IMG/VR virus record: IMGVR_UViG_3300031886_000006
Location: 1 to 49,257 of that record
Length of the DNA: 49,257 bases
DNA from: a virus
Direction: 5' to 3' (one strand)
A program made the position numbers and the translations under genes. Numbering within the stretch: position 1 is the first letter of the stretch; each line of letters begins with the position of its first letter. Positions 11,501 through 36,404 of the stretch are shown piece after piece. The notes under the pieces were generated by a model that worked only from the letters and a program-made list of their open reading frames with translations, was not told where the DNA came from and made no database searches.

Positions 11501-14500
11501 GGCCATCTCGTCGCCGGGCCGCAAATCTGCTTTGCCGAATCCGCCCTCAACCAGAACTCCGCTTGCCCTCAGTTGATCGATCAACTCGCGAGTGGAATCT
11601 GCTCCAAACTGGGTTGCGTCCGCTGCCTCTTGAAGGATCTCTTCTTCGGACAGTCCACCCTTCTCCCGGAGTTGTCTTGCCTTCTCGTCGAATTGGTCGT
11701 GCCAGAGTTTTGCGGCCTTTGTCGCTGTACCCCCTGCGTCCGCCACCTCTTTGTGGGCCGCTCGCCTAGCAGCCCAACCCTCCACAGACTTGAACCAGTC
11801 TTCGTACTCGTCCGTAGAGGGGTCGGTGTGGCCGGCAACGTTGGCGAGTTTGGCTAGAGCATCGTCGTACAGTTGCTGGTGTTCTCTTGTGTCGAAGTCC
11901 CAGATAGGACCAGAGAACTGAGGCATGCTGTTTCGTAGTATGCCCTGTTGGTCATAGCAGAACATGTTTGATCCTGCTACGGAAACCTTGCACAAATCGT
12001 AATGTTCTTTGCCGAGCAAGAATGGGGTATTGCTAGCCTCCAACTCTGCGATTAAGCGCGCTACCTCAATGTCATCGCCCTTATCCAGTGCCTCTGCGAC
12101 AGGTACTCCATTTTCCAATGCCTCAGCGAATTCCTTATGCAGCAGTGAGGCGACCTCTTCGCCGGTAATCGAATCAGTCGGAACGATTTTGACATTCATA
12201 AGTTTCTTGGAATCAGATTCGCCAGGACTGAGACGGTAATTATCCAGAATCATCCTCATTGCAAGTTCCGTCTGGTCAGCAGTAACAACAAGAGGCTTCC
12301 CGTGGAAGAACTCCAATCTTTGTTCGTCGGTGAGTGCGTTGTAAACTTCTAGGCTCTCAACAAACCTGCCATCAGCCAACGCTTCCTGGATGGCATCAAT
12401 GCTCTCTATGTGCCTCTGCCTGCGCTGTCGTAACTCCTTATCGCCACCAAACCTTGCGAGCAATCGTCCCAACAACGAATCGGGATCAACGCGACCTTCT
12501 GCACCCAGTTCCAGTTCCAGCCTCTCCAGATTCTTTTCCAAGTCATCGAGTATCTCGTGGTCAGCGATCTGCTCGGGAGTAAGACTCACCCCCAAAACAC
12601 CCTTCGAAGAACGCACACCGCCTGGACTCCTCGCCTCCTGAGCCCTGATCGAAAGGTCCACCCCAGCAGCATCCAAGGCTTCACGGAGACGGTCCATTCG
12701 CATTTCGTCGTCCACCGACATCACAGATTCGCCCGCACCCGGTACGGCAATTTCTACGCCCCACCTCTGCCTGAGATCGTTGAATTCATCCAGCATCTCC
12801 TGGTTGGTCATCTCTTCTATCGCCGGAGGTGCGAGATCTGTTGGCCTGATCTCATCATTCCGTGCCTTGAGCCTGAGCCGGTCCTGACTCCCCTGAACCG
12901 TGGCCAACACCCGAGCGCGTTCCCGCCTTACATCAGAGTCAGCCGTACCCGGAAGGTTGATAACGGAACTCTCAATATCCACCAGCACCTGTTCTGCGGT
13001 TTTCTGTTCCCCAAGGGACATGACGATTGTCCCGTCATCGTCTATGCCTTCGACGACAAGTTTGCCGGGAGGCAGCAGGAGCCCCCTGTCCGAGCCGTCA
13101 TGGTCGTCGACATGCATGCCGCGACTCTCTGCGGGGACCTCGATTCTGACAGTGGCGGCTCCAGTGGAGGGCAGCATGCTGGCCATACTCTCGCCCTCTT
13201 CGCTCACAACTGATCCCTGCATGAAGCCGGTGTGTGTGACTTCCTGTCCAACAGTGATCGAATCGGGATCGAGTTCCATTCCCATTCGTACCGTGACTCG
13301 ATCAGTCAATGGATTGTCGTCCATGGCTTCCAGCGCTGGAACCAGACGTTGTTCGATGTCCTGATCCACCCATGGAGTCGGTTGGCCTACATCCACACGC
13401 CCGGTTTCCATAGATGCATCACTACCGAGGCGGCGCGCTGCTGCGGCTCGTGTGATGTTCTCGTCCATTGAAACGGTGTTGACGTGTTCCATGGCGCTTC
13501 GTGCCAGGTCCCGCTGACTGAGCGCTCGAATGGCCTCGGTTTGTTCGGTTGATAGGCCGGTCTCAACGGATGCCCTGTGAGTGGAAGCGCTTGTTGCCGT
13601 GGAGGCTTCGGACACGCTGGCGTGATACCCGAAGAGTGGCGAGGCGTCACGACTGCTAACTGAGTCGCTGGAACCCAACTTCGGGTAAAGATCGTCGAGA
13701 GTGCTACGGATGTCTGCCACTTCATAAATGTCGTAAATCTCATCCGCTGCTTCCAACTCGTCCATCTTGTATTTAGGCAGGTTGCTTGGGACAATTTTCA
13801 TTGGTTCGACGGGTTTTCCCGCTGCGAGGTTGGCTGCCTTCTGTGTGTCGCTGTCCTGAACACGGCGAGCATTGGCGTTGAGGATCATCTCGACCCCCCT
13901 CGCAGCCATGAAGAGGCGTGCCTGTTCGTCCTTGGTGAGTCCGTCAGCACCGTCGAACTTGGTTGCGAGGCGCTCAAATTCATCCGTGAAGACGCCCAGC
14001 CGTTCTTCCAGAACGTCAGGTTCCAGCCAGGTTGGCGAATGGTCTGGGTATCCAAACTCTTCGTTGACGCGGCTGCGCAGTTCGAGCGGCATGGAACGCG
14101 GACCCCGACCCTGCTGGTGCATGTATGAAACCAACGAGTTGAGACGGTCCCATGAGCCGGCTTCCGCTAGGTCTGGGTCAACGTCTGGGGCGCCGGGGTC
14201 TAGGTCTGGAGGGTCTGGGTTGGGCAGGTCGAGGTCTAGGTCCGGGGTGAAGACTTCCGGTGCGTCTGGAGGGTCGGGACTGAGTCGTATGTCCTGGGTT
14301 TCGAGAAGGTCGTCGATTTCCTTGCCTCCGACGATTCCCATCCGTCGTAGGGAGTGGAGTTCTGCTAGGGCTTCTAGGACGAGTAGTTGGGAATGGACGT
14401 CAGCATCTGACGCCCCATATTGGGTCGGGTCCCAACCGGCTTGCTGACTGCCCCACCAATCCCACATATGATCTTGGTAATATTTGCCCGCCAGGACGTG

Positions 14501-16454: not shown

Positions 16455-18128
16455 CTAAAGGGGCTTTTTATCTTCAGCATTCTCTGAGGTCAACAACTCG
16501 AACTCGAGGAGCGAGGCGGCGAAGTCTTCGTCTTCGACCTGGTAAGCCTTGTCGCTACCAGTTACCCAGTTGGCCGGAATCAACTGGCTCAAGCCCAAAG
16601 CCTTTGCCCGCTTCATAATGTGACGCTTGGCCTCATCCTTGTTCTTCGCCCGGCCAAATGCCTGAATGGCATTCTTGAGGTCGTTCTCAGATGCGATTGG
16701 GTATGAGCCGTCAGGAAGGGCTGAGCCCTCCTGTGCCATCTCGCCGCGCTTCTCATCACTGAATGCGCGCTTCAAGGCGATCTCTGCAGCCTCGGCTTCG
16801 ATCTCTTCGGCCTCGTCCGCCTCGTAGGCATCATGGCCAAGAGTGACACCGTCAAGTGCCACGAAGACGTCGTAGGACTTGCCGTCGACGCCGTCGATCT
16901 CGACTGCATAACAATCGAAACCTTCGAACACGTCAGGCTCTACCGAAATAACTTCACCCGGTAGTGACTTGACCGCGATATCCGCAGCCTGAGTGAAATC
17001 GATGAACTCGATGTCGTCTTCCAACGACTTCTGTGCCAGCACGGAGTCGTCCAGTCGGTGATAGCCGAGAACCTCGGCGCTGCTGCCATCGATAAATACT
17101 TCGATGGCGCGGTCATCCTTGGTTGCAAGGTCGACTACGAACATGTCCGCATCCTGGGAGTATCCAGAATCAATTACATCGCCTGAGAACTCTTCCTCAA
17201 CCATGCCCTCGATCTCGAGGAGTCCAGGAAGACCCTTTTCGGAAACGCAACCACCAGGGCAGTCGTCACAAACGGGAGACGTGCCAGGGTATGCCTTGCG
17301 TTCGATAGCGCAGACGTAGCCGTTCATGTTCAGTGTGTCTGATTTCTGACCCATCTTCTCGAGCCGACGCTTACGGTATTCACCGTAGTTCTTCTCATCC
17401 TCGAGGTACTCCTGATGGATGGTGTCTTCGATCCGCCGTTTTTCGTCTTCGTCCTTCTTCTCGGCGGACATTTCCTCCTCTTCATCCTCCATGGGCACGC
17501 GACGTCGCGGCGGAGGAGGCGGCGTCATCGGCCTCGGAGGAGGCCCCCCTTCTTCTTCGGCGGCAGGGGCTGGAGCGGCGGCAGGGGCTGGAGCGGGGGC
17601 AGCCTCTTCTTCGGCTGGTGGGGCAGGGGGAGGACCGGTAGGAGCCGGCGGCGGACCCGGAGGAGCCTCCTCTTCGTCCATAGGCGGCCTGGGACGCCGC
17701 GGCGGGGGTGGAGGTAGTTCTTCTTCCTCTTCTCCCTCTGGGGTCCGATGAACCTTCTCCTCGGCCATGTCGGTCTCCTCGTCTGCACCCTTTTCTTCTG
17801 TCTTTTCTAGAGAAGCAGGAAGGGCACCACATTTGCCACAAACCGTGGCAGCGCTCTTGTAGCCACAGTCGGAATTGCTATAATCCTTGGCGCATCGTAG
17901 GAGTTCGCTCTTATCGTCGACGTGGACGACGCCTGTCTCTTCATACTCCATAAGTTCGGACTCCTTGTAAGCCATGGTGTCAATGATACAACCCTGATGG
18001 TTGCTGCAATCACCACACGGCATAATAGCCTTTAGGCCCGTTAGTGAGCAGTAGTATTTAGATTGTGTATTCCGCGGTCCTCTCTGAGTATTGTATCCCA
18101 CAGGGGTGCTCGGCTGGCCAATAGTCAT
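16455..18128 (-). CDS. 557-residue Cys-rich, Pro/Glu-rich protein with PepSY-like and DUF6582-like regions
   Basis: I chose the ATG at 18128 because it overlaps the previous stop as ATGA; an in-frame ATG at 18161 is the alternative. The N-terminal 105 residues hold eight cysteines (27, 38, 41, 47, 79, 88, 97, 100), some as CGDC and CGKC pairs, fitting metal binding. Residues about 115-215 are low-complexity Pro, Glu and Ala. Residues about 310-445 hold two PepSY-like units, the clearest with KSLPGEVISVEPDVFEGF and then YDVFVALDG. The C-terminus (near 470-525) has the pattern SYPIASENDLKNAIQAFGRA ... HIMKRAKALG, which I associate with DUF6582, a short domain found in capsid-maturation genes of actinobacterial phages. 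Its place straight after the protease gene suggests a scaffold or assembly role, but no assembly function is visible in the sequence. Confidence 0.85.
   Translation of the reverse strand: MTIGQPSTPVGYNTQRGPRNTQSKYYCSLTGLKAIMPCGDCSNHQGCIIDTMAYKESELMEYEETGVVHVDDKSELLRCAKDYSNSDCGYKSAATVCGKCGALPASLEKTEEKGADEETDMAEEKVHRTPEGEEEEELPPPPPRRPRPPMDEEEAPPGPPPAPTGPPPAPPAEEEAAPAPAPAAAPAPAAEEEGGPPPRPMTPPPPPRRRVPMEDEEEEMSAEKKDEDEKRRIEDTIHQEYLEDEKNYGEYRKRRLEKMGQKSDTLNMNGYVCAIERKAYPGTSPVCDDCPGGCVSEKGLPGLLEIEGMVEEEFSGDVIDSGYSQDADMFVVDLATKDDRAIEVFIDGSSAEVLGYHRLDDSVLAQKSLEDDIEFIDFTQAADIAVKSLPGEVISVEPDVFEGFDCYAVEIDGVDGKSYDVFVALDGVTLGHDAYEADEAEEIEAEAAEIALKRAFSDEKRGEMAQEGSALPDGSYPIASENDLKNAIQAFGRAKNKDEAKRHIMKRAKALGLSQLIPANWVTGSDKAYQVEDEDFAASLLEFELLTSENAEDKKPL
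17558..17593. repeat. Two tandem 18-base units in Pro/Ala-coding DNA
   Basis: Two exact copies of an 18-base unit starting CGGCGGCAGGGG. On the minus strand they encode alternating Ala and Pro in the linker of the 557-residue protein. Likely a slippage product; length may vary between relatives. Confidence 0.75.
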
Positions 18129-21100
18129 CGTCCCATTAGTTCCATTCCGACGTTCAGCCACATTTCCAGAAACTGTTCCAATGCCGCGATTCGGATAGGA
18201 GTCATATCCACAGCAGTGTCGTCATCTACTCCTGGTGTTACTCCGCCGCTCCGTTCAATACTTCCCAAATAGCGTGTAAGGGCTTCCTTCCGTGTATCAA
18301 TAGCCCTGCCGGCTCCTGCCGATCTATGCTGGCGATCAAGTACAACGGCCAAGGCTTCGATTAGGCCGTCGACCTGACCGTTTTCAATCCCGATCTCCCC
18401 ATGATCGGTTTGGTTTACATGACGAACTCCGTACCGGAAGGAACGTTTACTGTTCTCTTCCATACTCTTCTTCAACTTTGTTAAAGCGTCAGCCGTGGTG
18501 GAGTCATCGTTTTGCTTTGCTTTAGCAACCTCCACGTCAAGGGAATTGTAAACTATTCTAAATAGACTTGACTTGCCGGCGACCTGAGATCGCTCTTTGA
18601 CCTCATCTCTCTTACTGGTGCGCATCCCCTCGGGCTTATTCATCGGGATTGTCGGCCTCTCCCGCTTGGGTAGTGGCTTTTTCTTTTTCCTGTCCGGATC
18701 AAGGGCGTCCGCTAGCCCTTCGGCAACTCCTGCCAAGCCCTGCGTGATCGGCTCGTAGGCGGCTCCCCGGTCTGGTTTCTCCGAGCGCAGGCCCTTCCGC
18801 CGTCCGGCTTCGCGCTTGTCGAAATAATTTTTGAGTGCCGTTTGAGTCTGCTCCGCAACTCCCTTCATGGCCTCATCAATAAACGCTCTGATATTGGCGT
18901 GCCCTTCGTCCCGCTCCCGTTGCCTGTTCAGACCAAGCCCCCGAATGACTTCATCGGGTCGTTCACTGTCGGCGATGAATGCATCACGCAGGTCGGCCTG
19001 TTCTCGCCGACCCTTGCGTGACCTGACTCCCTTTCGGATGTCCTCGCGTCGCGCCTGTCCCGAACTTCCCTGGCGGGCAGCAATAAAGAGTTTGAGATTT
19101 TCGAGTTCGCGGGTTGGAGTCAGTGTCGGTACGCCACTCTCAGCGTGAGAAGGCGACATGGTCTTTGGAATTCGGGCTCCACCCTTGCCCACGTCCTGTT
19201 CGTCTCCATCACGAATGATTCGTATCGGAACAGCCCGCAAGCCCATTGACTTGGCTATCTGATAACGCTCGGCAGAGTCCCATCCGTTGGCATCCAACGT
19301 TGACTCTGGTCCCGTTTCCAGGCGGTAATCGCCGCTTTCTGGATTGAAACGCAAGACGATGGGAGTTTCGATGCCACGTTTCGCCAACCTGTCATCGTCT
19401 ACTTGATCACCGGGGTTGTTGGCATCCACGGGAGCCACGTCATCAATAAAACTGGTCGGTACCATTTCCGTTTGATCAAACCAGTCGCGATTAGTGAGAG
19501 CCGGATGAGGGTAATTGGGATCGGTCGCGTCTTGGATCCCGTGGGTTTCAATGATCTGCTGTCGCCCGTTCCCAATGAACTCCTTGATTTCGGAAACGGA
19601 CATGGCGTTGATGTCTGGTTTGTCGGGAAGTCTTTGGTCCTCACCGATCCCAACGGGAATGTCACTCTCTGTTGGGTCCCGGCGTTTGCCGACAATTGCT
19701 TCTGCCGCTTCCGCTGCGATCTCGTCCGCCCGAGTCGGCGCTGGGAGGTCGCCGTCTTCACCCTCTTCGTCCCAATTGCGGCCCTGTCCGATTCGTCCTC
19801 TGCCGTCGATTCGTCCTCTCCGGATTCTCTCCCTTTCTCCCCTTGCGACTGCGTCCCTATACCAACTGGCGGGTTGGGCGTCCTCACCCGGGTCGGGCGT
19901 GCTGGAACGCAAACCCTGCCGCTCACGCCTCATGCCGGCAGAAAGAGTTTCGTTCGTGGTGCCCTCGCGCTCGGGCCTCCCCTGTGCGACCCTACGATTC
20001 TGCCCTGCCGTCATGCGGGCCGCGATGCGCTGCTCAGGAGTCATCCTGCTCGTCATACGAGCCTCCAGACGCTCCTCAACGGTCGGTCGAGCAACACGCT
20101 CATAGAAATCGACAGGCAAACTCGTAGAGACCTTGCCATCCCGTTCCTGCTGGAACGCGAAGAGATCTCGAAGTGCCCGCTCGCGCTGAGAACGTCGCGC
20201 CACTCGCTGCTCCGGGGTCATCCGGCTAATTGAGATATCGGGGAGGGACTGTGGTAACGGGGTGATCTCTCCCGCTTCTATCCGCCTCTTGTATTCAGCG
20301 CCGTCGGCCAATTGCTGCTCGCGCCACTGCCGCATGATGTCGCGATTCTTTTTATTGCCCTTGTATAGACCGGTTGCCCGCCCCAGCCTGAGAAGCAAGG
20401 ACTGCTGCTGAAGTTGCAAGTTTCGGTAATCTTCCATGGAGCCGTCGATGTCTCCAAGTTCCATGTCTCGCACGGAGACTCTGGTTTTATTGAGTTCATC
20501 CGACAAGCGAGCAACCCGATTAACCCTGCTGGATAGGCCGTCTACGGCCCGTGCTCCGCCAGTCTCTACCGCATCTTGACCTTCCTCTAGGCCTCCCATG
20601 CGTGGCACGATGTCACTACTGCCGGTCCTATCAATGTCGGGATCGTTCTCGTATTGCTTCAATAGTTTGTCTACATGCTCGCCAAATGTCGTGGCTGCGC
20701 CAACGCTCCTGGCCTCGGCCTTGGAAAGATCCCCTCCGGTGCGCGCCCCTTCAAGGTATTCCTCAATTCGATCACTGAGATCTTCAATGGTGGAAAGCCT
20801 GAAATCTTCCAACTCATCGGCTTCGTCCTCCAAGGTGAAGGTCATGCCGGTATCGAGAGCATCTACCAATGAATCCCAGAACTCCTGGTGCTCAGGAGCA
20901 ACATCGCCCGCCAGGACTCCGTCGGCCATCGAATCCCGATGCTTGTTAACTCGCTTGCTCATTGTTGTGTGTTGCCTGTTTCGGTACACAGCAGTCGCCA
21001 GAACCCGCTCCTCGGGGGTCATCTTCTTTAGTCTCTCCGACTGTTCCGCGATCGGCTTCTTCTTTGCGATGGTGGGTGGGGGTGGTTCTCCCGCATCGCG

Positions 21101-24100
21101 TGCCTTCCTGGCGGCCTCGAATCGCAACTTCCGCCGCTCTGCGAGTTCTTCCTGCCTGTACACGGGGTCACTCTTCATCAGTGCCCTATGAACGGCCTCG
21201 TCGACTTCCTTCATCAGCCGTTGGTGGTCGCCCTCAGATAGCCCACTTTTTGCTGGATGTAGGTTTGTCTGTAGTTCTGCTCGCTTCTCTTCTGGTGTGT
21301 ACAGATCCCAATCTTTGGGCTTGATTTCATCCCATACCTTGCCCCTGAACCGTTCGTCGTTGTGACGCAGATCGCCGCTTCCCACAGTTCCGCTACGCAA
21401 ACCACCCTTTCGGGTGTCGCCATATGGTCGCATTCCCCTTCCGGCTGCACTGTGGTTGACGTAATAGTTGTGAAGACGGATCCAATCCTTGGGTGAGAGA
21501 TTGCCTTCGTCGCGGTCAAAGCGACGGACGATTTCCTGGACATTATGGAACCCGCCCTGCTGACGACCCCAGTACATCAAATCACCCTGGAGCCTCGGAG
21601 AGATGTCGTTGGGGGCACCGCTGTTCAGTCGCCGACCGGAACGCACACCACCCTTGGGGCTCCTGGCGACCTGTGGGGAAACCCACTTGCCCTTTTCCGA
21701 AAGGGCGGCAAACTCGAGATAATCCCTAACCTGCATGTGCACGCCCGCCCCATCCATGACGCGCATGGCGGTAAAGGCATCCATGATGTCCTTGTATTCA
21801 GCGGTGTCGATACGGAACGCCCCATCCTTGGCATCGTCGATTTTCTTGTCGAGCATCTTCATGGCTGACCTGATGCGATCGTTGTCGTTAAACCAGTTCA
21901 TAGCGTTCAAGTGCTGGATGGTTTTCCTGACGTCAACGATTTCAGCCTCGGAGAGTTTGATCTCCATGATCCCGCTGGGGTGCGGATTAATGCGATCACG
22001 GTCACCCGTGGTAAGCCTGTAGCGCGCTTCGTGTAGTCGGGCGGCGGCGGCCGGCTCGTTGATTGATTCCAACTTGCTAGCGAGAAGGTCGATGTCTTGG
22101 ACGGTTTTGAGTCGATCCAGATAGTCGGTTCCCTTCTTCTTGCCTATCAGGACATCATGGGCAGTTCGGTAAGCCTTTTCGTCGTTGGGCATCAGCACCC
22201 TGCCGTCGAGTAGGCGCTTCAGGTCGCCGTCGACGCGGTCGGCCATCGAAGGGGGATCTCCGTCGTATGTGCCGTTGGGCTTTTTGGTGTATGTTGCGGC
22301 CTTTTTAATCTTGTTGATTGCGGTGCCGACCTGTTCGGCAGTTTTAATGTCCTCCACCATCTCCGGAGTGACGCCCCCATAGACATAGGCGTGGGCGATT
22401 GAACCCTCCCCGGTGGTCTGGCTGGCCTGCCTAAACCAGACCTGCAATTCCTGATTGCCGGCATCGAAGAATACGCGCTTGACAGCGGCACTTTCATGGG
22501 ATTTGCCATCCCCGGGATAGACCTCATGGTCATGTCCCAATCCGGCACCAGCGGTAACAATTTTCGGCTGTGCCCGACGTTCATTTTCTTGACGGCGAGC
22601 CTCGCGCCTGTCTCTGCGGGATTCCCTTTTACGGGAACCCAGTCCGCCTCGACGAATCTCCCGGGCGTTTTTCACCATTTGTTTGACTTCGTCTAAATCG
22701 TGACCGTGTCGCCTGTGTTCGTTGATTTCACCTTCGAGCCGCTCCCAGTCTTTATAGGTCTCGAAGATGTCGTCCATCGTGTCTCTGGCGGAACCAAAGA
22801 TGCGTTCCATTTCGTCGACCGTGTTGTCATCCCAGCCCTCATCACGGAGTTTCTGGAGGTAGCCCTCTTTATCGTTTTCCAGGAGATATGGCTCGATGTC
22901 ACCTTCGCTGTGTCCAATCCACCCTTTAAGACTCTTTTGGTCCTTGATGATCGTTTTGGATACCTCACGTTGTTCCGCGAAGATCTCTTCTAGGTCGTCA
23001 TGCTCGTCCTGGTAGAACGCAACCATGTCATCGACTTCTTGCTCGATGCCGATGCGTTCTTCCCACTTGTCTCCCCATGCGTCGAGTTCGTCGCTGTAAC
23101 CCTTGGGGCCCGCATCCGGGGGGTTGTCGATATCGAAATCAGGATTGGCGTCTTCCCAATCCTGTTCACGCTCGAGTGTTTCTGCCAGGGCTGCGAGGTT
23201 TTCTTCCAGCGTATGAGAGGCCAATTCTTTGCGTTGATCGGTATGGTTCTCACGCCTGGAGGAGCGGAGTCCCACCTTCTTCTCCAATTCGGCGGCAAAT
23301 GAGCCGTCGTCTGCTGGAAGGGGCGCCTCTTCCTTGGGTGCTGGTACACCCCCTGTTAGGAGGTCCCTAAGATCTTCGACTTCTTCGTCCTTGTCAGGGA
23401 TGTCATCTCGATGTGTCCCCCATACGTTTGTGTCTGGCTTGGGTCGACGTCGAGGTGCTTGGCCTGCGGGGATGTCGCCCTCATCGAGGATCGTGTCATC
23501 GAGTAGGGCGCGGATTTCGACAGCCTCGGTTTCGGCATCCGCCCGACCTTGGTCGAAGATGTTCTGCCGGTCCCACATGTCGAGAAGGAAAAAGAGGTTC
23601 AGGTCTCCGTCCGTGCCAACCTCGTATTCCCGTTCTATTTCGTCCCATGGGATGGGATCTATTTCGTATTTGGGAATTGGTGGAACGGTCATCTGCATGC
23701 CCACTTGTCTGCGGGCACGGGTGGGGGTTCCCTCCGGGAGGTCCGCCCTGGCTCCGTTGATGGTCAGGGCTCCCAATATGGCGTCAATGGTTTCATCGTC
23801 ATAGCCCCTCTCCCGTAGGAGTAGCGCTCCCTTGAACCATGACAGTTCACGTTGACCCAACTTTGGCAGGATTGGTTCAGGGTCAACGCCTGGAGGAAGG
23901 TCGGCGGGGTCTGTAATGAGGTTGCCGTCTGCGTCTCGATATAGGGGATTAACGGTTTTGGGATTTCCAACGATTCCGCCAATGCCAGATTCAGGGCTTG
24001 GCGATGCGTCGTGCCACCTTGCGACTTGTTTCAGATATTTGGATGCTCCCGCATCATCTCTATTGCCTTCCCTGATCCTGGTGACGGCACGTCCAAAGCG

Positions 24101-26026
24101 GACATGGAATTCGTCTTCGTTTATGCCAAACTCTGCAAGGACTTCGGAGAGTTTCTTGGGTTCGTCTGATACTCCGAATGATGCGTCGAAGATGCGATCG
24201 TCTAGTTCGGTGTCCTCTAGGTATGGTCCGACGATGTCAGAATCAGCCAAGTAGTACCTGCTGCGCAAGCCATCCCTGTAGACGTCATTGACTGCCCGCT
24301 CGCCACGTCCCATAAGGCGCCGTTGCCGGTCTGCTAGCGCATCCAAATCCCTCTGACTTCCTATCTCCTCGAGGGGACGAAGGATGCGTTGTAAGCGAGT
24401 GCCATCAGGAAGCATCTCCCCGGGGTCATGCAGCACTCTTCCGTCGGGCCGGAGACGCCGACTTCCGTCGGGGTTGAGACGCGGATCGCCGCCGATGGTC
24501 GGCCAATGATCGGGGTCGAAATGGCCGGATGGATATAAGGGGTCCGTGGGAGCCAACCGGTCAAGGGCCCCACCCCACTCGGCGGTGGGTTTCTTCGGTT
24601 CGCCGAGGCCGTCACCGCGCTTGCGGTGGTCATCTGGATAGTCGGCCGGCTTGACACGCGTCTTGGGCATCCCGGGAAGGTTCGTATTGATCCCGGGGAC
24701 GGCGGGTCGTTCGAACGGGGTGCCCTCTTGGACTATCCCGTCGCCATCACCGTCCCAGGCCTTTGGGTCAAATACTGCTACGGCGCGCCCTGCGCGCCGC
24801 ACTTTTCCCAGGCCACCACCACCCCCGCGGCCCGGCCCGATTCTTCGGCCGAGGCCTTTGGTGGCCGTTTCCACGGCGGTGATGAATTCGGGAGTTGCGC
24901 CCGAGTGGATAAAGATTCCTTCGTCAACCACTTCGGCAACTGCGCCGTGGTAGTCGATGATTGGATCCAGAAGGGACTTTGTAGCGAATGCACTTTCAAT
25001 CGGAACCTCAATAAGTAGGTCCTCTGGCTCCAACGACTTCTGATCATCGCTCAACTTCTGAACGATGCGCATAACCCGCGGCATCATGTCATTTTCGTGG
25101 CTGTACCTACTGCTGGGGTTGACCTGCGGCTTTACCCGCATCGTGGGCGGCTGGTTTACGGGTTCGTACACCACCTGTGGCATAACGCGCTCGGGACGTC
25201 CAAGCATAAACCCGCATTGTGGGTTGTACTGATAATGAACCCGGAAGACGGCTGATCCGTTGTCGGACCGCACCACCTGGAAAACGGCTACTCCGTTCTC
25301 CGCACTGATAAGTCGTATCGGCTGGGGCGAGCGCGACATCAACTCGAGTTCCAACTTGCGGTCCATCTGATCTGACGAGTTGTCTCGTGGAGTCTCGACG
25401 GGCATCATCGCGAGCATTCCGTCCTTCTCGCTGAAGTCGTCGAATCTGAAGTCGAGACCGTCCTGAGTGTCAAAGTGCGTCTGCTCGTGCTCCATAACCT
25501 GGCCTGCGCCCTTGACCGAAATCGTTCCCGTCAGTTGGTTCGCACCGTGGAGAACGGGGGAGCATTCGTAAAGTTCCACTTCTCGCAGAAGGTTGGCCTG
25601 TCGTACCGGGTCCTGTGAGGCGTTGATTGTCTTGTAGCCGATCGACCATTCCTGTTCTTCTCCGAAGAATGAGACGCTGGCGAATGCCTCTCGGCCCTTT
25701 TCGGAACCCAGATTGAATTGGACCCGTGCGTAGAGTCCTCCAACGCCGCCTTCCTTCATCTTCGCCGGCAGGCGGTTATCGCTGGGTCCGACTTCGTAGA
25801 TTTCAAGGACTTTGCCGATGGGGTCATTCCAGTTGTGGCCCCAGACGACGCGCGGCTTGCGGCGCTGCAGGCTGCCTGCAAATGCTCCCGGCTGAATAAT
25901 GTCGCCGACTGAGTCCTTGTTGCCGATGCCGGCTACAAAGCACTCAACAATGCCCTGTTTTTCATCTACGCTGACCTGCCCATTCGTGGCTTTGGTCAGG
26001 ATGTTGTCCATAACAGTAGCGGGCAT
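18125..26026 (-). CDS. 2633-residue polyprotein: HK97-type prohead protease fused to a giant multi-module tail
   Basis: The ATG at 26026 has GAGGAG 5 bases upstream. Residues 1-190 match the HK97-type prohead protease (peptidase S78): WGHNWNDPIG with the likely catalytic His64, and EWSIGYKT with the likely catalytic Ser128. This family is normally about 200 residues and cuts capsid and scaffold proteins during head maturation. Here about 2400 more residues follow: a Gly/Arg-rich stretch; the calcium-loop module from residue 419; G-[LVM]-R-[ST] motifs at 586, 919, 1460, 1542, 2038, 2333, 2412 and 2467; a coiled-coil acidic region (930-1140); a KTSC-like domain (about 1175-1245); three MTPE[EQ]R repeats between about 1660 and 1990; and a degenerate ParB-like region near 2220-2260. 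It starts 115 bases after the portal. I see no frameshift or stop between protease and tail. Confidence 0.9.
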   Translation of the reverse strand: MPATVMDNILTKATNGQVSVDEKQGIVECFVAGIGNKDSVGDIIQPGAFAGSLQRRKPRVVWGHNWNDPIGKVLEIYEVGPSDNRLPAKMKEGGVGGLYARVQFNLGSEKGREAFASVSFFGEEQEWSIGYKTINASQDPVRQANLLREVELYECSPVLHGANQLTGTISVKGAGQVMEHEQTHFDTQDGLDFRFDDFSEKDGMLAMMPVETPRDNSSDQMDRKLELELMSRSPQPIRLISAENGVAVFQVVRSDNGSAVFRVHYQYNPQCGFMLGRPERVMPQVVYEPVNQPPTMRVKPQVNPSSRYSHENDMMPRVMRIVQKLSDDQKSLEPEDLLIEVPIESAFATKSLLDPIIDYHGAVAEVVDEGIFIHSGATPEFITAVETATKGLGRRIGPGRGGGGGLGKVRRAGRAVAVFDPKAWDGDGDGIVQEGTPFERPAVPGINTNLPGMPKTRVKPADYPDDHRKRGDGLGEPKKPTAEWGGALDRLAPTDPLYPSGHFDPDHWPTIGGDPRLNPDGSRRLRPDGRVLHDPGEMLPDGTRLQRILRPLEEIGSQRDLDALADRQRRLMGRGERAVNDVYRDGLRSRYYLADSDIVGPYLEDTELDDRIFDASFGVSDEPKKLSEVLAEFGINEDEFHVRFGRAVTRIREGNRDDAGASKYLKQVARWHDASPSPESGIGGIVGNPKTVNPLYRDADGNLITDPADLPPGVDPEPILPKLGQRELSWFKGALLLRERGYDDETIDAILGALTINGARADLPEGTPTRARRQVGMQMTVPPIPKYEIDPIPWDEIEREYEVGTDGDLNLFFLLDMWDRQNIFDQGRADAETEAVEIRALLDDTILDEGDIPAGQAPRRRPKPDTNVWGTHRDDIPDKDEEVEDLRDLLTGGVPAPKEEAPLPADDGSFAAELEKKVGLRSSRRENHTDQRKELASHTLEENLAALAETLEREQDWEDANPDFDIDNPPDAGPKGYSDELDAWGDKWEERIGIEQEVDDMVAFYQDEHDDLEEIFAEQREVSKTIIKDQKSLKGWIGHSEGDIEPYLLENDKEGYLQKLRDEGWDDNTVDEMERIFGSARDTMDDIFETYKDWERLEGEINEHRRHGHDLDEVKQMVKNAREIRRGGLGSRKRESRRDRREARRQENERRAQPKIVTAGAGLGHDHEVYPGDGKSHESAAVKRVFFDAGNQELQVWFRQASQTTGEGSIAHAYVYGGVTPEMVEDIKTAEQVGTAINKIKKAATYTKKPNGTYDGDPPSMADRVDGDLKRLLDGRVLMPNDEKAYRTAHDVLIGKKKGTDYLDRLKTVQDIDLLASKLESINEPAAAARLHEARYRLTTGDRDRINPHPSGIMEIKLSEAEIVDVRKTIQHLNAMNWFNDNDRIRSAMKMLDKKIDDAKDGAFRIDTAEYKDIMDAFTAMRVMDGAGVHMQVRDYLEFAALSEKGKWVSPQVARSPKGGVRSGRRLNSGAPNDISPRLQGDLMYWGRQQGGFHNVQEIVRRFDRDEGNLSPKDWIRLHNYYVNHSAAGRGMRPYGDTRKGGLRSGTVGSGDLRHNDERFRGKVWDEIKPKDWDLYTPEEKRAELQTNLHPAKSGLSEGDHQRLMKEVDEAVHRALMKSDPVYRQEELAERRKLRFEAARKARDAGEPPPPTIAKKKPIAEQSERLKKMTPEERVLATAVYRNRQHTTMSKRVNKHRDSMADGVLAGDVAPEHQEFWDSLVDALDTGMTFTLEDEADELEDFRLSTIEDLSDRIEEYLEGARTGGDLSKAEARSVGAATTFGEHVDKLLKQYENDPDIDRTGSSDIVPRMGGLEEGQDAVETGGARAVDGLSSRVNRVARLSDELNKTRVSVRDMELGDIDGSMEDYRNLQLQQQSLLLRLGRATGLYKGNKKNRDIMRQWREQQLADGAEYKRRIEAGEITPLPQSLPDISISRMTPEQRVARRSQRERALRDLFAFQQERDGKVSTSLPVDFYERVARPTVEERLEARMTSRMTPEQRIAARMTAGQNRRVAQGRPEREGTTNETLSAGMRRERQGLRSSTPDPGEDAQPASWYRDAVARGERERIRRGRIDGRGRIGQGRNWDEEGEDGDLPAPTRADEIAAEAAEAIVGKRRDPTESDIPVGIGEDQRLPDKPDINAMSVSEIKEFIGNGRQQIIETHGIQDATDPNYPHPALTNRDWFDQTEMVPTSFIDDVAPVDANNPGDQVDDDRLAKRGIETPIVLRFNPESGDYRLETGPESTLDANGWDSAERYQIAKSMGLRAVPIRIIRDGDEQDVGKGGARIPKTMSPSHAESGVPTLTPTRELENLKLFIAARQGSSGQARREDIRKGVRSRKGRREQADLRDAFIADSERPDEVIRGLGLNRQRERDEGHANIRAFIDEAMKGVAEQTQTALKNYFDKREAGRRKGLRSEKPDRGAAYEPITQGLAGVAEGLADALDPDRKKKKPLPKRERPTIPMNKPEGMRTSKRDEVKERSQVAGKSSLFRIVYNSLDVEVAKAKQNDDSTTADALTKLKKSMEENSKRSFRYGVRHVNQTDHGEIGIENGQVDGLIEALAVVLDRQHRSAGAGRAIDTRKEALTRYLGSIERSGGVTPGVDDDTAVDMTPIRIAALEQFLEMWLNVGMELMGR
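24656..24772 (-). repeat. EF-hand-like DGDGDG module, copy 1
   Basis: Residues 419-457 of the 2633-residue protein, beginning FDPKAWDGDGDGIVQEGTPF. It has the same Gly/Arg-rich lead-in and the same PADxPDD tail as the copy in the 1267-residue protein. Confidence 0.85.
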
Positions 26027-28363: not shown

Positions 28364-29674
28364 GTGCCTGTGATCGATTGGGATGAAATCTTAGAGTTCC
28401 TCCAGCCGAGGGATTCCCCGTATTGTCCGGAGGCGCCTTCGCTGACGCAGAAGGTCTTCCTGCGCACCTACGCCCTCGAAGCGCTTTTTGGTGGTGCAGC
28501 CGGGGGCGGCAAATCCTCTGCCCTCCTCATGTCGGCTCTCCAGTATGTAGATGTGCCCGGCTATAACGCCATTATTTTCCGTCGGACTTACGCCGACCTC
28601 GCGCTCCCCGGCGCCATCATGGATCGCTTTACTTCGTGGATTGAAGAAGTTGAGGACGTCAGATGGAACGGCTCAATGTATGTTGCAACATTCCCATCGG
28701 GAGCGAGGGTTTCGTTCGGTTATTTGAATAACTCGCAGGATTATCTCCGCTACAAAGGCGCCGAGTTCCAGTTCATTGGAATGGACGAGGTCACCGAGAT
28801 AAGGGAGCATGACTATCGTTACCTGTTCTCCCGTTTGCGGCGGCCGGCAACGGGTCCTGTTTCCAAAGTGCCGCTCAGGATGCGGGCGGCGTCCAACCCT
28901 GCACCCAATTGGGTCAGGCAGCGCTTCATTGTCGAAGGCTCAGACAACAGTCGAATTTTCGTGCCATCCAAACTCGAAGACAATCCCGGCATCGATGCCG
29001 ACTCATATCGCCAGTCGCTACAAGCGCTTGATCCGGTGGAGCGCAAGCGCCTTGAAGAGGGCGATTGGTGGTCCACGACCTTGGGGACCATGTTCAACCG
29101 TGAGTCAATTGTGATTATAGAAAACGACGAAGTGCCGACGTTGACCCCGATGGCCCGGGCCGTGCGCTTCTGGGATCTAGCGGCAACCGAGCCGAGCCAG
29201 TCCAACCCGGACCCCGACTGGACCGTTGGCACGCTAATGCTGTTCGATCAGGGCGTTGCCTACATTCTCGACGTGAGACGGCACCGAGGTAAGGGGCAGG
29301 ACATCGAGCGCTTCATCGCCCAGACGGCCTATGAGGATGGAGGACAGATACCAATTCGCATAGAGCAAGAGCCAGGCTCATCAGGCAAAGCGCTGATTGA
29401 TCAATACGCCCGGTACATCTTGCCGGGGTTCGATCTCATGGGCATCAGGGCCACCGGGGACAAGGTGACGAGGGCTCGTCCGCTCGCGGCAGCCGTGGCC
29501 AACGGCAACGTGCGTCTGGTAAGGGGGGCGTGGCTTACCGACTGGTTGGACGAGGTGTCCGCGTTCCCCGAAGCCTGCGCCCATGATGATCAGGTCGACT
29601 CGGCCACGGGGGCTTTCTCGCATGTCACGGGCATAGGCTTGCCTCAACGCAAACGGGCCGCTATTGTAGTTTGA
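28364..29674 (+). CDS. Terminase large subunit
   Basis: 436 residues, the usual length. It is the DNA-packaging motor: the N-terminal ATPase pumps DNA through the portal and the C-terminal nuclease cuts the concatemer. The Walker A motif GGAAGGGKS is at residues 43-51 (Lys50). FQFIGMDE at 135-142 is Walker B with the catalytic Glu142. RFWDLAATEP with Asp271, EQEPGSSGK, and HDDQVDS with Asp408/409/412 form the RNase H-like nuclease. The start is a GTG with AAGGA 8 bases upstream; a GTG at 28370 is also possible. It heads the plus-strand operon, pointing away from its partner the portal. No small terminase subunit is recognised in the window. Confidence 0.96.
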   Translation: MPVIDWDEILEFLQPRDSPYCPEAPSLTQKVFLRTYALEALFGGAAGGGKSSALLMSALQYVDVPGYNAIIFRRTYADLALPGAIMDRFTSWIEEVEDVRWNGSMYVATFPSGARVSFGYLNNSQDYLRYKGAEFQFIGMDEVTEIREHDYRYLFSRLRRPATGPVSKVPLRMRAASNPAPNWVRQRFIVEGSDNSRIFVPSKLEDNPGIDADSYRQSLQALDPVERKRLEEGDWWSTTLGTMFNRESIVIIENDEVPTLTPMARAVRFWDLAATEPSQSNPDPDWTVGTLMLFDQGVAYILDVRRHRGKGQDIERFIAQTAYEDGGQIPIRIEQEPGSSGKALIDQYARYILPGFDLMGIRATGDKVTRARPLAAAVANGNVRLVRGAWLTDWLDEVSAFPEACAHDDQVDSATGAFSHVTGIGLPQRKRAAIVV

Positions 29675-32772: not shown

Positions 32773-33075
32773 ATGCGTAGGCGAAGCAAGAAGAAGCAAC
32801 GAGAATATGTTGAGCGTCGGAAGTTGGTCCGACGGATGCTCGAAGATCGCCCCTACTGCGAAGCCTGTCCAGTATGGGCATCACATGACGGCAAGAAGTC
32901 TTACGTCAGAAGCGGGAGTGTCGACATCCACGAGTTGAAACGTCGGTCTCAGGGTGGATCGATTCTGGATGAAAGCAACTGCATGGCGGTCTGTCGTCGA
33001 TGTCACGATCGAATCGGTCGAGAACCACAATTGGCAGTAGATCTTGGTCTGGCTAAAAGGAGTTGGATGAAATGA
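32773..33075 (+). CDS. HNH endonuclease
   Basis: 100 residues. After a very basic start (MRRRSKKKQREYVERRK) come Cys29 and Cys32, then DIHELKRRSQGG with His53, the loop asparagine Asn69, and CRRCH at 74-78, a full HNH layout with zinc-binding CxxC pairs. In tailed phages an HNH protein often works with the terminase in packaging cuts, but this one sits among recombination genes, so it may cut branched or host DNA. Its end overlaps the RuvC-like gene as ATGA, arguing against a freestanding homing endonuclease. Confidence 0.9.
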   Translation: MRRRSKKKQREYVERRKLVRRMLEDRPYCEACPVWASHDGKKSYVRSGSVDIHELKRRSQGGSILDESNCMAVCRRCHDRIGREPQLAVDLGLAKRSWMK

Positions 33076-33623
33076 TCCTTCTCGGCCTAGACCCCTCGCT
33101 TACCTCAACGGGAGTATGTATTGGTGAAGGTTCCGGCGTTGCTTACCACTCATACGAGCAAGACGTGGGACGGTTGGTGGACATTCGGAATTATGTACTG
33201 AGTGCCTGTAGCGAACAAAACGTCCAATGCGTAATCATGGAGGGCTATTCCTACGGCTCACGCACCCGGGCGCACGCTTTGGGAGAACTCGGTGGTGTGC
33301 TGAAGGTCGCATTTGACGAAGCATGGATTCCCTATGTGGTTGTGCCTCCTACCTCGCGAGCCAAATTTGCTACTGGTCGTGGAAATGCCGGCAAGGCCGA
33401 AGTCATTTCGGCGGTGTCGTTTAAAACGCAACAGTCGTGGTCGGGCAAGGGTATCGAGGATCGCATCGACGCATGGGTGCTTCGCGAGATGGGCCTACAG
33501 CGATTAGGTCTAAGCCAGTATGACTGGCCCGCTGAAAACCTTAAGGCTCTTGACGGAGTCGAGTGGGAGCCGCTATTAGTTGCGGCAGGATTGGAGAATG
33601 GTGAACCGATCACAACCGATTAG
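33072..33623 (+). CDS. RuvC-like Holliday junction resolvase
   Basis: 183 residues from ATG 33072, with AAGGAG 9 bases upstream. The RNase H-like core has LGLDPSLTSTG (Asp7), VIMEGYSYG (Glu57) and IEDRIDAWVL (Asp130, Asp133), the four acidic residues of RuvC-type resolvases. Residues PPTSRAKFATGRGNAGKAEV match the family's DNA-contact segment. It would resolve branched recombination or replication DNA before packaging. It completes an anneal, resect and resolve set with the Rad52-like and Fe-S nuclease genes. Confidence 0.92.
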   Translation: MILLGLDPSLTSTGVCIGEGSGVAYHSYEQDVGRLVDIRNYVLSACSEQNVQCVIMEGYSYGSRTRAHALGELGGVLKVAFDEAWIPYVVVPPTSRAKFATGRGNAGKAEVISAVSFKTQQSWSGKGIEDRIDAWVLREMGLQRLGLSQYDWPAENLKALDGVEWEPLLVAAGLENGEPITTD

Positions 33624-33945
33624 TCAGGTCGACATTGAGCATCAACTCATGCACCTGATCGAATCGCTAGAAGAGGAGACCGAGGCTTTCGAGCAGTTGG
33701 CGGAAGACGCAGCGAAGAAGGAAGCCCGTTACAAGGCTGCTTGGGCCAAAGAGTATCTGTCTGCGAAGGGGTCGATCAAAGAGCGAGAGTCGTGGGCTGA
33801 TTACAAGTTGGCCGACACACAGTTTGATTTCAAGTGTGCGGAAGCACTGGTCAAGGCAAAGCGGGAAAAGTTGCTGTCGTTACGGACCTCGATTGATGCC
33901 ATGCGAACGCTTAATGCAAATGTTCGCTTCCAGGTCGGTCCGTGA
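33598..33945 (+). CDS. Hypothetical coiled-coil protein
   Basis: 115 residues from ATG 33598 (GTG 33601 also possible). It overlaps the end of the RuvC-like gene by 26 bases and the start of the ParB-like gene by one. The protein is nearly all helix: EHQLMHLIESLEEETEAFEQ, a Lys/Ala-rich middle, and a C-terminal helix ending in SIDAMRTLNANVRFQ. Proteins of this shape occur beside RuvC-like and annealing genes in other phages, as far as I recall. A structural or accessory DNA role is a guess. Confidence 0.8.
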   Translation: MVNRSQPISQVDIEHQLMHLIESLEEETEAFEQLAEDAAKKEARYKAAWAKEYLSAKGSIKERESWADYKLADTQFDFKCAEALVKAKREKLLSLRTSIDAMRTLNANVRFQVGP

Positions 33946-34724
33946 TGGAACACAATGTAAGCGAGTCCCTAAAGGGCTTGTTGATGCCCGTTGATTCGCT
34001 CATTCCGTTGGAACGCAACCCACGGGTGGGCAACATCGAGGCGATTATGGCCTCCTATGCAGAATTCGGTCAAGTTAAACCGGTTGTGGTGCGGCCGAAT
34101 GATGACGGCACCTCGACTGTTGTCGCGGGAAACCATCAGGTCGAGGCGGTTAAGCGTCTTGGGTGGACCCATATTGCTGCAGTTCCAATTGATGCCGACA
34201 ATAAGCGAGCGGTGGCTTTTGCCTTGGCGGACAACCGAACGATGGAGTTGGGCTATACCGATCTGGCCCAAGCGTCGCAAATGATTGTTGAGATCGCCGA
34301 GGAATATGACGACCTATTGAACAGTCTTGAGTGGGACGATTATGAGATCGCCTACTACGAAGAGCAGGTTGTCGATCCGGCAACAATTGAGAACGAGGGA
34401 TTCGTTCGTCCGATATTGGCTGAACTGGCCGGAAGGGCTGCTGAAACCATTGCCGGCATGGTGAGGGAAGACGAAGACGGAACGCGCAAGATAATTGCTG
34501 ATGATTCGGTCGACCATGAAGAGATTGCCATTCAGGGAAGTACGGCAGTTGTACCGGGGGCTGCGCCGCGTGCTGTAGTTCAGTACACGATTGTTTTCGA
34601 TGATCCGGACCAACAGAAGCGTTGGTACGAGTTCATACGTTGGCTCCGCAATGAGCCCGGTTACGAGGGAAGCACGACTGGCGAGAAGTTGGTGTCATAT
34701 ATCGACGCTCATTCAGAGGCATGA
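33945..34724 (+). CDS. ParB-like nuclease/NTPase-fold protein 1
   Basis: 259 residues from ATG 33945 (TGATG overlap). The N-terminal ParB-like domain shows PLERNPR (21-27), a helix, VKPVVVRPNDDG and the core AGNHQVEAVKRLG (61-73), where most family members have G-x-H-R. Replacement of Arg by Gln may matter. The C-terminal part has a beta/helix segment, VVQYTIVFDDPDQQKRWYEF. The gene is joined to a PP-loop (PAPS reductase-like) gene by an ATGA overlap. Such pairs resemble IbrB/IbrA of enterobacteria and recur in phages with DNA-modification genes. A role in modification or transcription control is an inference. Confidence 0.88.
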   Translation: MEHNVSESLKGLLMPVDSLIPLERNPRVGNIEAIMASYAEFGQVKPVVVRPNDDGTSTVVAGNHQVEAVKRLGWTHIAAVPIDADNKRAVAFALADNRTMELGYTDLAQASQMIVEIAEEYDDLLNSLEWDDYEIAYYEEQVVDPATIENEGFVRPILAELAGRAAETIAGMVREDEDGTRKIIADDSVDHEEIAIQGSTAVVPGAAPRAVVQYTIVFDDPDQQKRWYEFIRWLRNEPGYEGSTTGEKLVSYIDAHSEA

Positions 34725-35851
34725 GCCGGCAACGAATGTTTCTCGACATTTCGTGTGTCGATGCAGCCCGCCAGAGAATTCGTCATGTTTATGACACCTT
34801 TGACACGGTCTGCGTGCAGTTTTCTGGCGGGAAGGACAGCACCGCCGTCCTGTATCTGGCTAAGGAAATCCACGAAGAGCGAGGACTCGGCCCAGTTAAA
34901 GTCATTTTTCGTGACGAAGAGATGGTTAGCCCCATCGTGTTGGACTACGTCAAGATGGTTAAGGATTTCGATTGGGTCGACATGGAGTGGTATTGCCTCC
35001 CCAGCGGTGCCGAGATTTGGGTCCTAGGTAGGAGGCAATCGGCAATCCTGTGGGGAGAGAAGCGAATGAAGGAGGGACGGCTGGTTCGAGAAATTCCAGA
35101 ATGGGCAATAACTGGTTACCACTTTGGTCTTGACCATGCGCAGGGGCTTCCCAAGTCGATTGATCATTACACGATGCAAGGCAAGACGGGAAGCGTGGCC
35201 TTTATCACGGGTATCCGTGCAGCCGAATCGATGGTGCGGTATCGCTCCGTGGTCCAGAAGTTGCATGAGAACTACATCAACCATCCTTACAAGTTGAGCA
35301 AAAGCGTGCCGCTGAAGTTTGCCAAAGTGATCTATGACTGGAACGTCAATGACGTCTTGAAGTTCATCTCCGAGGAACACAACGCGCCCTACTGTGAGTA
35401 TTACGACCGAGCGGCCATGACGGGATCAAACACGAGAGTTGGAATCCCTCTGCACTCGGTAGCGATACGTCGCATTGGAGACCTGGTTGCTACTGAGCCA
35501 GATTTCTACGATCGTCTTTACGAATGTTTTCCTCAGATCGACGCACAGCGTCGCTGGTGGAAGGACTTCGATGTTGAGAAGTTCATAGCGGAGTACACGC
35601 AGGCCGGGTGGGATGGGGTCGCGGAGTTCATTAGGGTTTACATGATTGGCCAAGTCAAGACCCAGCGGGCCAAGGCATTCGTGGCAGAGTTTCGAAAAAA
35701 GCACGCCAGGGACCCCCATTCGTATCCTTTTGAGAACTTGATACGACATATGTTGCTCAAGGAAGTCAACCGTGCGGCCTCCGTAACTCCGGTTGGTCCC
35801 AAGACGAGGGCACACACTCTACGCATGAAGGAGTTAGACAATGGAGATTGA
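34721..35851 (+). CDS. PAPS reductase-like PP-loop protein (IbrA/DndC-related)
   Basis: 376 residues. FSGGKDSTAVL holds the PP-loop SGGKDST at 35-41, which binds ATP or a sulfonucleotide. Other family signs are IFRDEEMVSP, the ITGIRAAES turn, and PLKFAKVIYDWNVNDVLKFI near the middle. Length and the long C-terminal extension fit the IbrA/YbdN-like branch better than true sulfate-assimilating CysH. Related PP-loop proteins include DndC, which helps place sulfur in the DNA backbone, but no other dnd genes are seen here. It is flanked by two ParB-like genes with overlapping starts and stops, so the three probably act together. Confidence 0.9.
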   Translation: MSRQRMFLDISCVDAARQRIRHVYDTFDTVCVQFSGGKDSTAVLYLAKEIHEERGLGPVKVIFRDEEMVSPIVLDYVKMVKDFDWVDMEWYCLPSGAEIWVLGRRQSAILWGEKRMKEGRLVREIPEWAITGYHFGLDHAQGLPKSIDHYTMQGKTGSVAFITGIRAAESMVRYRSVVQKLHENYINHPYKLSKSVPLKFAKVIYDWNVNDVLKFISEEHNAPYCEYYDRAAMTGSNTRVGIPLHSVAIRRIGDLVATEPDFYDRLYECFPQIDAQRRWWKDFDVEKFIAEYTQAGWDGVAEFIRVYMIGQVKTQRAKAFVAEFRKKHARDPHSYPFENLIRHMLLKEVNRAASVTPVGPKTRAHTLRMKELDNGD

Positions 35852-36404
35852 ACAAGTTGAGTGTGGGTCACTCAACATTCCCGACTGGCACGCCACCTAC
35901 ACCCTAAAGCCGGATCTGTCAGTGCTGGCGAAATCAATTTCACAGTATGGAATCCTGTCACCGCTGGTTGTTCAACGCGAGGGAGTCAACGTCATCGACG
36001 GTGGACATCGGTTGCGACTAGTTCTGGCGGGAGATCCCGAAAGCACGGTTCCCGTGGTGTGGGTTGATTGCGGCACAACGGAAGCAATGATGCTTCATAT
36101 CCAACTCAATCGCGGTCGCGGAACACTTCTGGCTCACAAATTATCAAAATTGATAAAAACCTTGGATCGGGTTACGGGAATGACCCCGGCTGACTTCAAC
36201 GACCATTTCGCAATGAAGTTCGACGAATTGGAACTCCTGCTGGATGGTTCAATTCTCAAGCGTCGTAAAGTTGCCGACCACAATTATTCCCGAGCCTGGG
36301 TGCCGGTTGAGGCTCCCCCGGGATCAACGGATAGCGAGTTGGCACGCAAGCACAAGGTGGCTGAGGAAATCGTTATCGAGAAGCCACCCAACCCTGATCG
36401 CTAA
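35841..36404 (+). CDS. ParB-like protein 2
   Basis: 187 residues. The ATG overlaps the PP-loop gene by 11 bases and has AAGGAG 6 bases upstream. The domain has a helix SISQYGILSPLVVQ followed by VIDGGHRLRLVLAG (51-64), which keeps the canonical G-x-H-R core that protein 1 lacks. HIQLNRGRGTL and a helical segment follow, then a basic patch KRRK. It is the last gene of the cassette; a gap with promoter-like sequence follows. It may be the active ParB-like partner, while protein 1 is a diverged one. Confidence 0.88.
   Translation: MEIEQVECGSLNIPDWHATYTLKPDLSVLAKSISQYGILSPLVVQREGVNVIDGGHRLRLVLAGDPESTVPVVWVDCGTTEAMMLHIQLNRGRGTLLAHKLSKLIKTLDRVTGMTPADFNDHFAMKFDELELLLDGSILKRRKVADHNYSRAWVPVEAPPGSTDSELARKHKVAEEIVIEKPPNPDR

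Follow-up and report, generated by a model that had tools for sequence, protein, structure and literature searches.

The window, a virus record of 49,257 bases, carries three overlapping genes of a tailed-phage genome that make up a conserved module, or operon, common to many unrelated and deeply diverged viruses. The outer genes (A and B) encode ParB-fold proteins and the middle gene (P) a PP-loop protein of the PAPS-reductase family. Our first choice among the explanations considered, which we hold tentatively, is that the three products form a complex that modifies phage DNA on a base or the backbone. The record also encodes a terminase, an HK97-type portal, a prohead-protease-like protein, a recombinase, an exonuclease and a RuvC-like protein. 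The features referred to below are as follows.

28364–29674, plus strand: terminase large subunit, on the same strand as the trio and ~4.3 kb 5′ of it
32773–33075, plus strand: HNH endonuclease, a conserved neighbour (13/42 groups)
33063–33623, plus strand: RuvC-like resolvase, a conserved neighbour (15/42 groups)
33580–33945, plus strand: PHROG 1389 upstream neighbour, kept beside the trio in the window's clade
33945–34724, plus strand: A, ParB-fold protein (Pfam, fold overlay, motifs)
34721–34724, plus strand: A/P stop/start overlap, ATGA, 4 bp (ORF coordinates)
34721–35851, plus strand: P, PP-loop (PAPS-reductase family) protein (Pfam, PHROG, profile alignment, fold)
35841–35851, plus strand: P/B overlap, 11 bp, with an AAGGAG ribosome-binding-like sequence just 5′ of the ATG of B
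35841–36404, plus strand: B, IbrB-type ParB-like protein (PHROG, profile searches, motifs)

A preliminary description had read this region as a ParB-like/PP-loop/ParB-like cassette with overlapping starts and stops, and the three ORFs do lie on one strand with overlaps of 4 and 11 bp. The longest ORF for A (33942–34724) gives 260 aa from a GTG at 33942; an alternative ATG at 33945, which overlaps the stop of the upstream gene by one base, fits the conserved start of relatives and is the predicted start used here. P and B are 376 and 187 aa long. A megablast search of positions 28000–49257 against phage records returned no match. Elsewhere in the window, the minus strand encodes two giant proteins of ~2,630 aa each: one (18125–26026) has an HK97 prohead protease-like domain at its start (6.9e-12), and the other (8543–16435) has no Pfam or NCBIfam match.

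We surveyed 131 viral loci fetched by scans with P. B lay 3′ of P in 121 of the 122 loci with room of 700 bases or more, and in 105 of the 110 with room of 900 bases or more A was found within 5 kb 5′ of P. Where A was found, the gap to P was at most 50 bases in 63 cases, 51–500 in 13 and longer in 33. The trio thus clearly recurs elsewhere, one of the two points on which the preliminary description had let its reading depend. At 85% identity the P proteins fell into 42 groups. Distance matrices were correlated between A and P (0.89), P and B (0.77) and A and B (0.63), values to which shared phage ancestry contributes. All three genes are under purifying selection, with dN/dS of ~0.04–0.11 against the nearest relatives (unsaturated synonymous sites only). 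Because dN/dS is low and the arrangement recurs in more than 100 viral loci, the trio is not a chance grouping.

The trio is present in sequenced Arthrobacter, Mycobacterium, Bacillus and Rhizobium phages, where its genes are already annotated singly, and to call it less familiar, as had been done, was too strong; we found no paper in the open-licence literature that treats it as a unit. In Arthrobacter phage Kovu the trio is genes 5-6-7, prophi79-1 has two A genes, and in Bacillus phage 031MP002 the order is A-P-methyltransferase-...-B. One gene of Rhizobium phage L338C (L338C_088; L138:5974–6702) is labelled a DNA methyltransferase and is actually a ParB-like A homolog with GHGR. In 12 of the 42 P groups a CxxC...CxxCHxxH protein of 132 aa (L128:7489–7887 and relatives) is encoded close to B on its 3′ side; it looks HNH-like by eye and has no Pfam match.

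P matched the Pfam family PAPS_reduct (PF01507, 1.3e-9), as did all of the 52 P proteins examined, and the PP-loop SGGKDS was invariant (52/52). The closest fold was human FAD synthase (Z 16.4, 169 aligned, rmsd 3.5), followed by the ATP sulfurylase CysD (Z 13.9) and PAPS/APS reductases (Z 12.7–13.9). These matches all handle an adenylate, and we infer that P is an ATP-using PP-loop enzyme. The Pfam name would suggest a CysH of the auxiliary metabolic kind, which would enhance sulfate assimilation in the host, and PAPS-reductase-domain genes of viral contigs are widely reported as such cysH genes (PMC8319345). This reading of P is nearly refuted, and we regard it as highly improbable: the catalytic ECGxH motif is missing in 138 of 138 proteins, no cysH model reaches E ≤ 0.01 with the window's P and the matches of those relatives that do have one are weak (best 2.7e-7), and P is locked to two ParB-like genes. 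Since an abundant family carries the domain without the CysH catalytic motif, part of the viral cysH claims may be wrong.

Conserved cysteines are few in P: C225 is conserved in 51 of 52 members, C92 in 38 of 52, and C31 in the window's clade only. A sulfur relay through C92 and C225 was rejected: distant trios do not keep C92, and IbrA has Asn where P has C225. In one lineage (L114:4759–6861; also L115 and L116) the PP-loop gene of the trio is interrupted, exactly before Cys92, by an in-frame intein with N- and C-terminal intein motifs and a LAGLIDADG_3 domain. The C92 site is the kind of place favoured by inteins.

If P resembled DndC or SspD, the trio could be a phage phosphorothioation system. 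DndC ranked among the stronger of P's sub-threshold matches (26 bits; 51/52 members), PADLOC reported a DndC match of 6.6e-8 over ~70 residues, and DndB, a ParB-superfamily protein, occurs in Dnd loci (PMC10853773). The window's P nevertheless scored 26.2 bits against an equivalog cut-off of 290, about a tenth, and the three 4Fe-4S cysteines required in DndC (PMC10853773) are missing, with one Cys conserved across P. PADLOC found no DndD, DndE, SspB/C or desulfurase among ten neighbouring window proteins, in a record that may be a fragment. We rejected membership of P in DndC and consider phosphorothioation quite improbable. Any sulfur chemistry by P is doubtful, because P lacks the DndC cysteines and only C225 is nearly invariant.

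The two ParB-like proteins differ in the residue that contacts phosphate. B matched Pfam ParB_N weakly (0.0033, under the curated cut-off) and PHROG 2159 clearly (7.6e-20), and its family profile matched PDB ParB chains at 4e-8. Its DGxxR motif, GGHR in the window, was invariant in 45 of 45 aligned proteins; further motifs are an invariant NR(G/A)(R/K)G and a C-terminal HxYSxAWxP. Since B keeps the phosphate-binding Arg of the ParB fold, it is probably an NTP-regulated DNA-binding subunit.

A matched ParB_N (PF02195) at 2.4e-7, and its residues ~11–102 overlay Myxococcus xanthus ParB (Z 12.7, rmsd 1.5, 89 aligned). N98 in its DNR motif is invariant among aligned members, and the domain is followed by a flexible linker and a conserved C-terminal stretch, VQYTIVFDDPDQQKRWY...WL; for this C-terminal part we saw no PDB fold match, from which a new fold does not follow. 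Box II of A reads GNHQ, with Gln replacing Arg, so that the preliminary description was right about the two proteins of the window. It had also set one altered member beside one canonical ParB-like member; as the hallmark of the trio this pairing did not hold up. Across non-redundant A proteins the fourth GxxR residue is Gln in the window's clade and Thr or Arg elsewhere, while B always has Arg: on the P tree, seven of the sampled trios have Thr (actinophages, L092, L130 and L107), and a large number that are otherwise alike have Arg. As A and B both carry Arg in some trios, an unequal pair is not defining. Mapped on the P tree, the GxxR state of A changed at least three times.

The Arg is missing in all sampled A proteins of the window's clade. 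Its absence is a fixed trait of this clade and not damage; decay of A was rejected, since Gln is fixed there and dN/dS is ~0.07–0.08 where measurable. A published survey used Arg-to-Ala at GxxR as its non-binding control in ParB-fold proteins (PMC12704722), and because the same Arg is missing here, A of this clade has probably lost the usual NTP binding. No ParA was present among the window neighbours scanned, which were part of the window genes.

The link to IbrB/IbrA pairs drawn earlier was borne out. A profile alignment joined P to bacterial IbrA along most of the length (371 columns, E 1e-58), and the B profile matched annotated phage IbrB at 1e-20 to 1e-25. DUF3440 was found by Pfam in none of 52 P proteins at E ≤ 0.01; three phage IbrA-type proteins matched it at 1e-86, 6e-55 and 2e-9. 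We compared the trio with 84 IbrA-type loci, namely bacterial relatives of P (80 genome loci) and four phage controls. DUF3440 was present in 82 of the 84; for the 80 genome loci this was judged by a search for similarity to three seed proteins and not by Pfam itself. An IbrB-type gene stood beside the DUF3440 gene in 81 of these 82 loci, and an A gene in none of the 82. Both loci without DUF3440 carry an A-like gene; in the Kribbella locus (L144) P lies at the end of a contig and is partial, and the Streptomyces locus (L145) is not a clean trio. Because P lacks DUF3440 yet is homologous to IbrA over 371 columns, and because A accompanies the trio but none of the DUF3440 loci, we place the trio on sequence grounds as a branch of its own within the IbrA/IbrB family, A being a predicted extra subunit, and not as a member by domain definition.

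Several of these comparison loci have features of their own. Streptomyces sp. MP131-18 (L145:2303–6308) has an island in which a class II glutamine amidotransferase stands in a row with two PP-loop genes and an A-like ParB gene. Ammonia chemistry is a lead from this amidotransferase and not support, as the enzyme was seen at this single locus, where there are two PP-loop genes and a separate B is missing. Gene 104 of Mycobacterium phage Nebkiss (L143:6317–7216) encodes an IbrB-type ParB domain fused behind a cupin domain; the cupin part matches ectoine synthase (1.3e-32). A conserved ~135-aa protein with no Pfam match lies 5′ of the IbrA-type gene in L212 and eight other, mostly Bacteroidota, loci. 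Just upstream of the IbrA/IbrB-type pair, 18 of the 84 loci (L140, L141, L142 and 15 bacterial loci among L146–L197) have a gene for a SNF2-type helicase of ~400 aa. This adjacency suggests that IbrA and IbrB act on DNA together with a translocase.

Homology of P and B to annotated IbrA and IbrB also raises the possibility that the trio is a regulator, co-activating phage or prophage genes as IbrA/IbrB do, with A as an added DNA-binding subunit. Rhizobium phage L338C and Streptococcus phage records do call them co-activators of prophage gene expression, but this label is inherited by similarity. Pfam gave no helix-turn-helix domain in A or B, and a catalytic PP-loop invariant in 52 of 52 proteins is unexpected if the function is purely regulatory. 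We consider a regulator somewhat unlikely, but a serious rival to DNA modification.

The surroundings of the trio concern the handling of DNA. Terminase, RuvC, HNH and recombinase genes are neighbours of trio loci, and some P relatives lie beside methyltransferase or GNAT genes. The trio adjoins terminase in mycobacteriophage Phlyer, Kovu and prophi79-1, and TerL-type genes are near it in up to 20 of the 42 groups. Such positions would also suit A and B acting as nickases or clamps in DNA recombination, partition or packaging, with P as a non-enzymatic, regulatory ATP sensor. Nicking by ParB-fold proteins is documented in other contexts (PMC5512222), but for the proteins considered here 'nuclease' is no more than an annotation label, and the conserved PP-loop enzyme would be left unexplained; we judge this explanation unlikely.

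DNA modification is our first choice because P has an intact ATP site and two ParB-fold partners, and because the neighbours cut, recombine and package DNA. P would use ATP to adenylate its target, B would be the NTP-regulated DNA-binding subunit, and A would serve as a ParB-fold scaffold or DNA-positioning subunit whose phosphate-binding Arg was lost in the window's clade. We infer that the three act as one complex. Modification might be timed around recombination and packaging and would protect phage DNA from host nucleases. DNA as the substrate, like the kind of modification, is a guess. The choice of DNA rests on gene neighbourhood: it fits the SNF2-type translocase beside IbrA/IbrB relatives and the methyltransferase or GNAT genes beside some P relatives, and terminase adjacency may be mere phage gene order. 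None of the papers found demonstrates modified DNA in a trio phage. In a more specific version, which we think rather unlikely as a whole, the trio would be a DNA-modification system, widespread yet undescribed, that joins a PP-loop enzyme to two unlike ParB-fold subunits, B as the NTP switch and A nucleotide-blind in several lineages; its modification would be neither methylation, phosphorothioation nor deazaguanine. As phages of several host groups have kept it so widely, the trio is a good target in the search for a new phage DNA modification or regulator, and the mycobacteriophages among them can be grown on a laboratory strain.

Compared with known systems, P shares the PAPS_reduct domain and overall fold of CysH PAPS reductase, whereas its family lacks the catalytic motif throughout. 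With DndC/SspD it shares the PP-loop PAPS-reductase family and, in Dnd loci, a ParB-superfamily partner (DndB), but P is without the Fe-S cysteines, scores far below the DndC cut-off and has no DndD/E-like neighbour that we found. A and B have the fold of the ParB-CTPase proteins (ParB, Noc, KorB, DndB and sulfiredoxin), and B keeps GxxR; A differs in lacking the GxxR Arg and in its own C-terminal stretch, and Pfam found the helix-turn-helix in neither. The likeness to IbrA/IbrB lies in two adjacent homologous genes, P with IbrA and B with IbrB. P, however, has no Pfam-recognisable DUF3440 and its C-terminal end is shorter or diverged, and the trio has a third, ParB-fold gene, whereas the pair is without a second ParB-like gene. 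The annotated phage trios (Arthrobacter phages Kovu and Salgado, Mycobacterium phage Phlyer and relatives, and Bacillus phage 031MP002) differ from the window in P (33–38% identity), in extra genes that intervene in some, and in A, which has Thr (actinophages) or Arg (Bacillus) and not Gln, yet they represent the same module.
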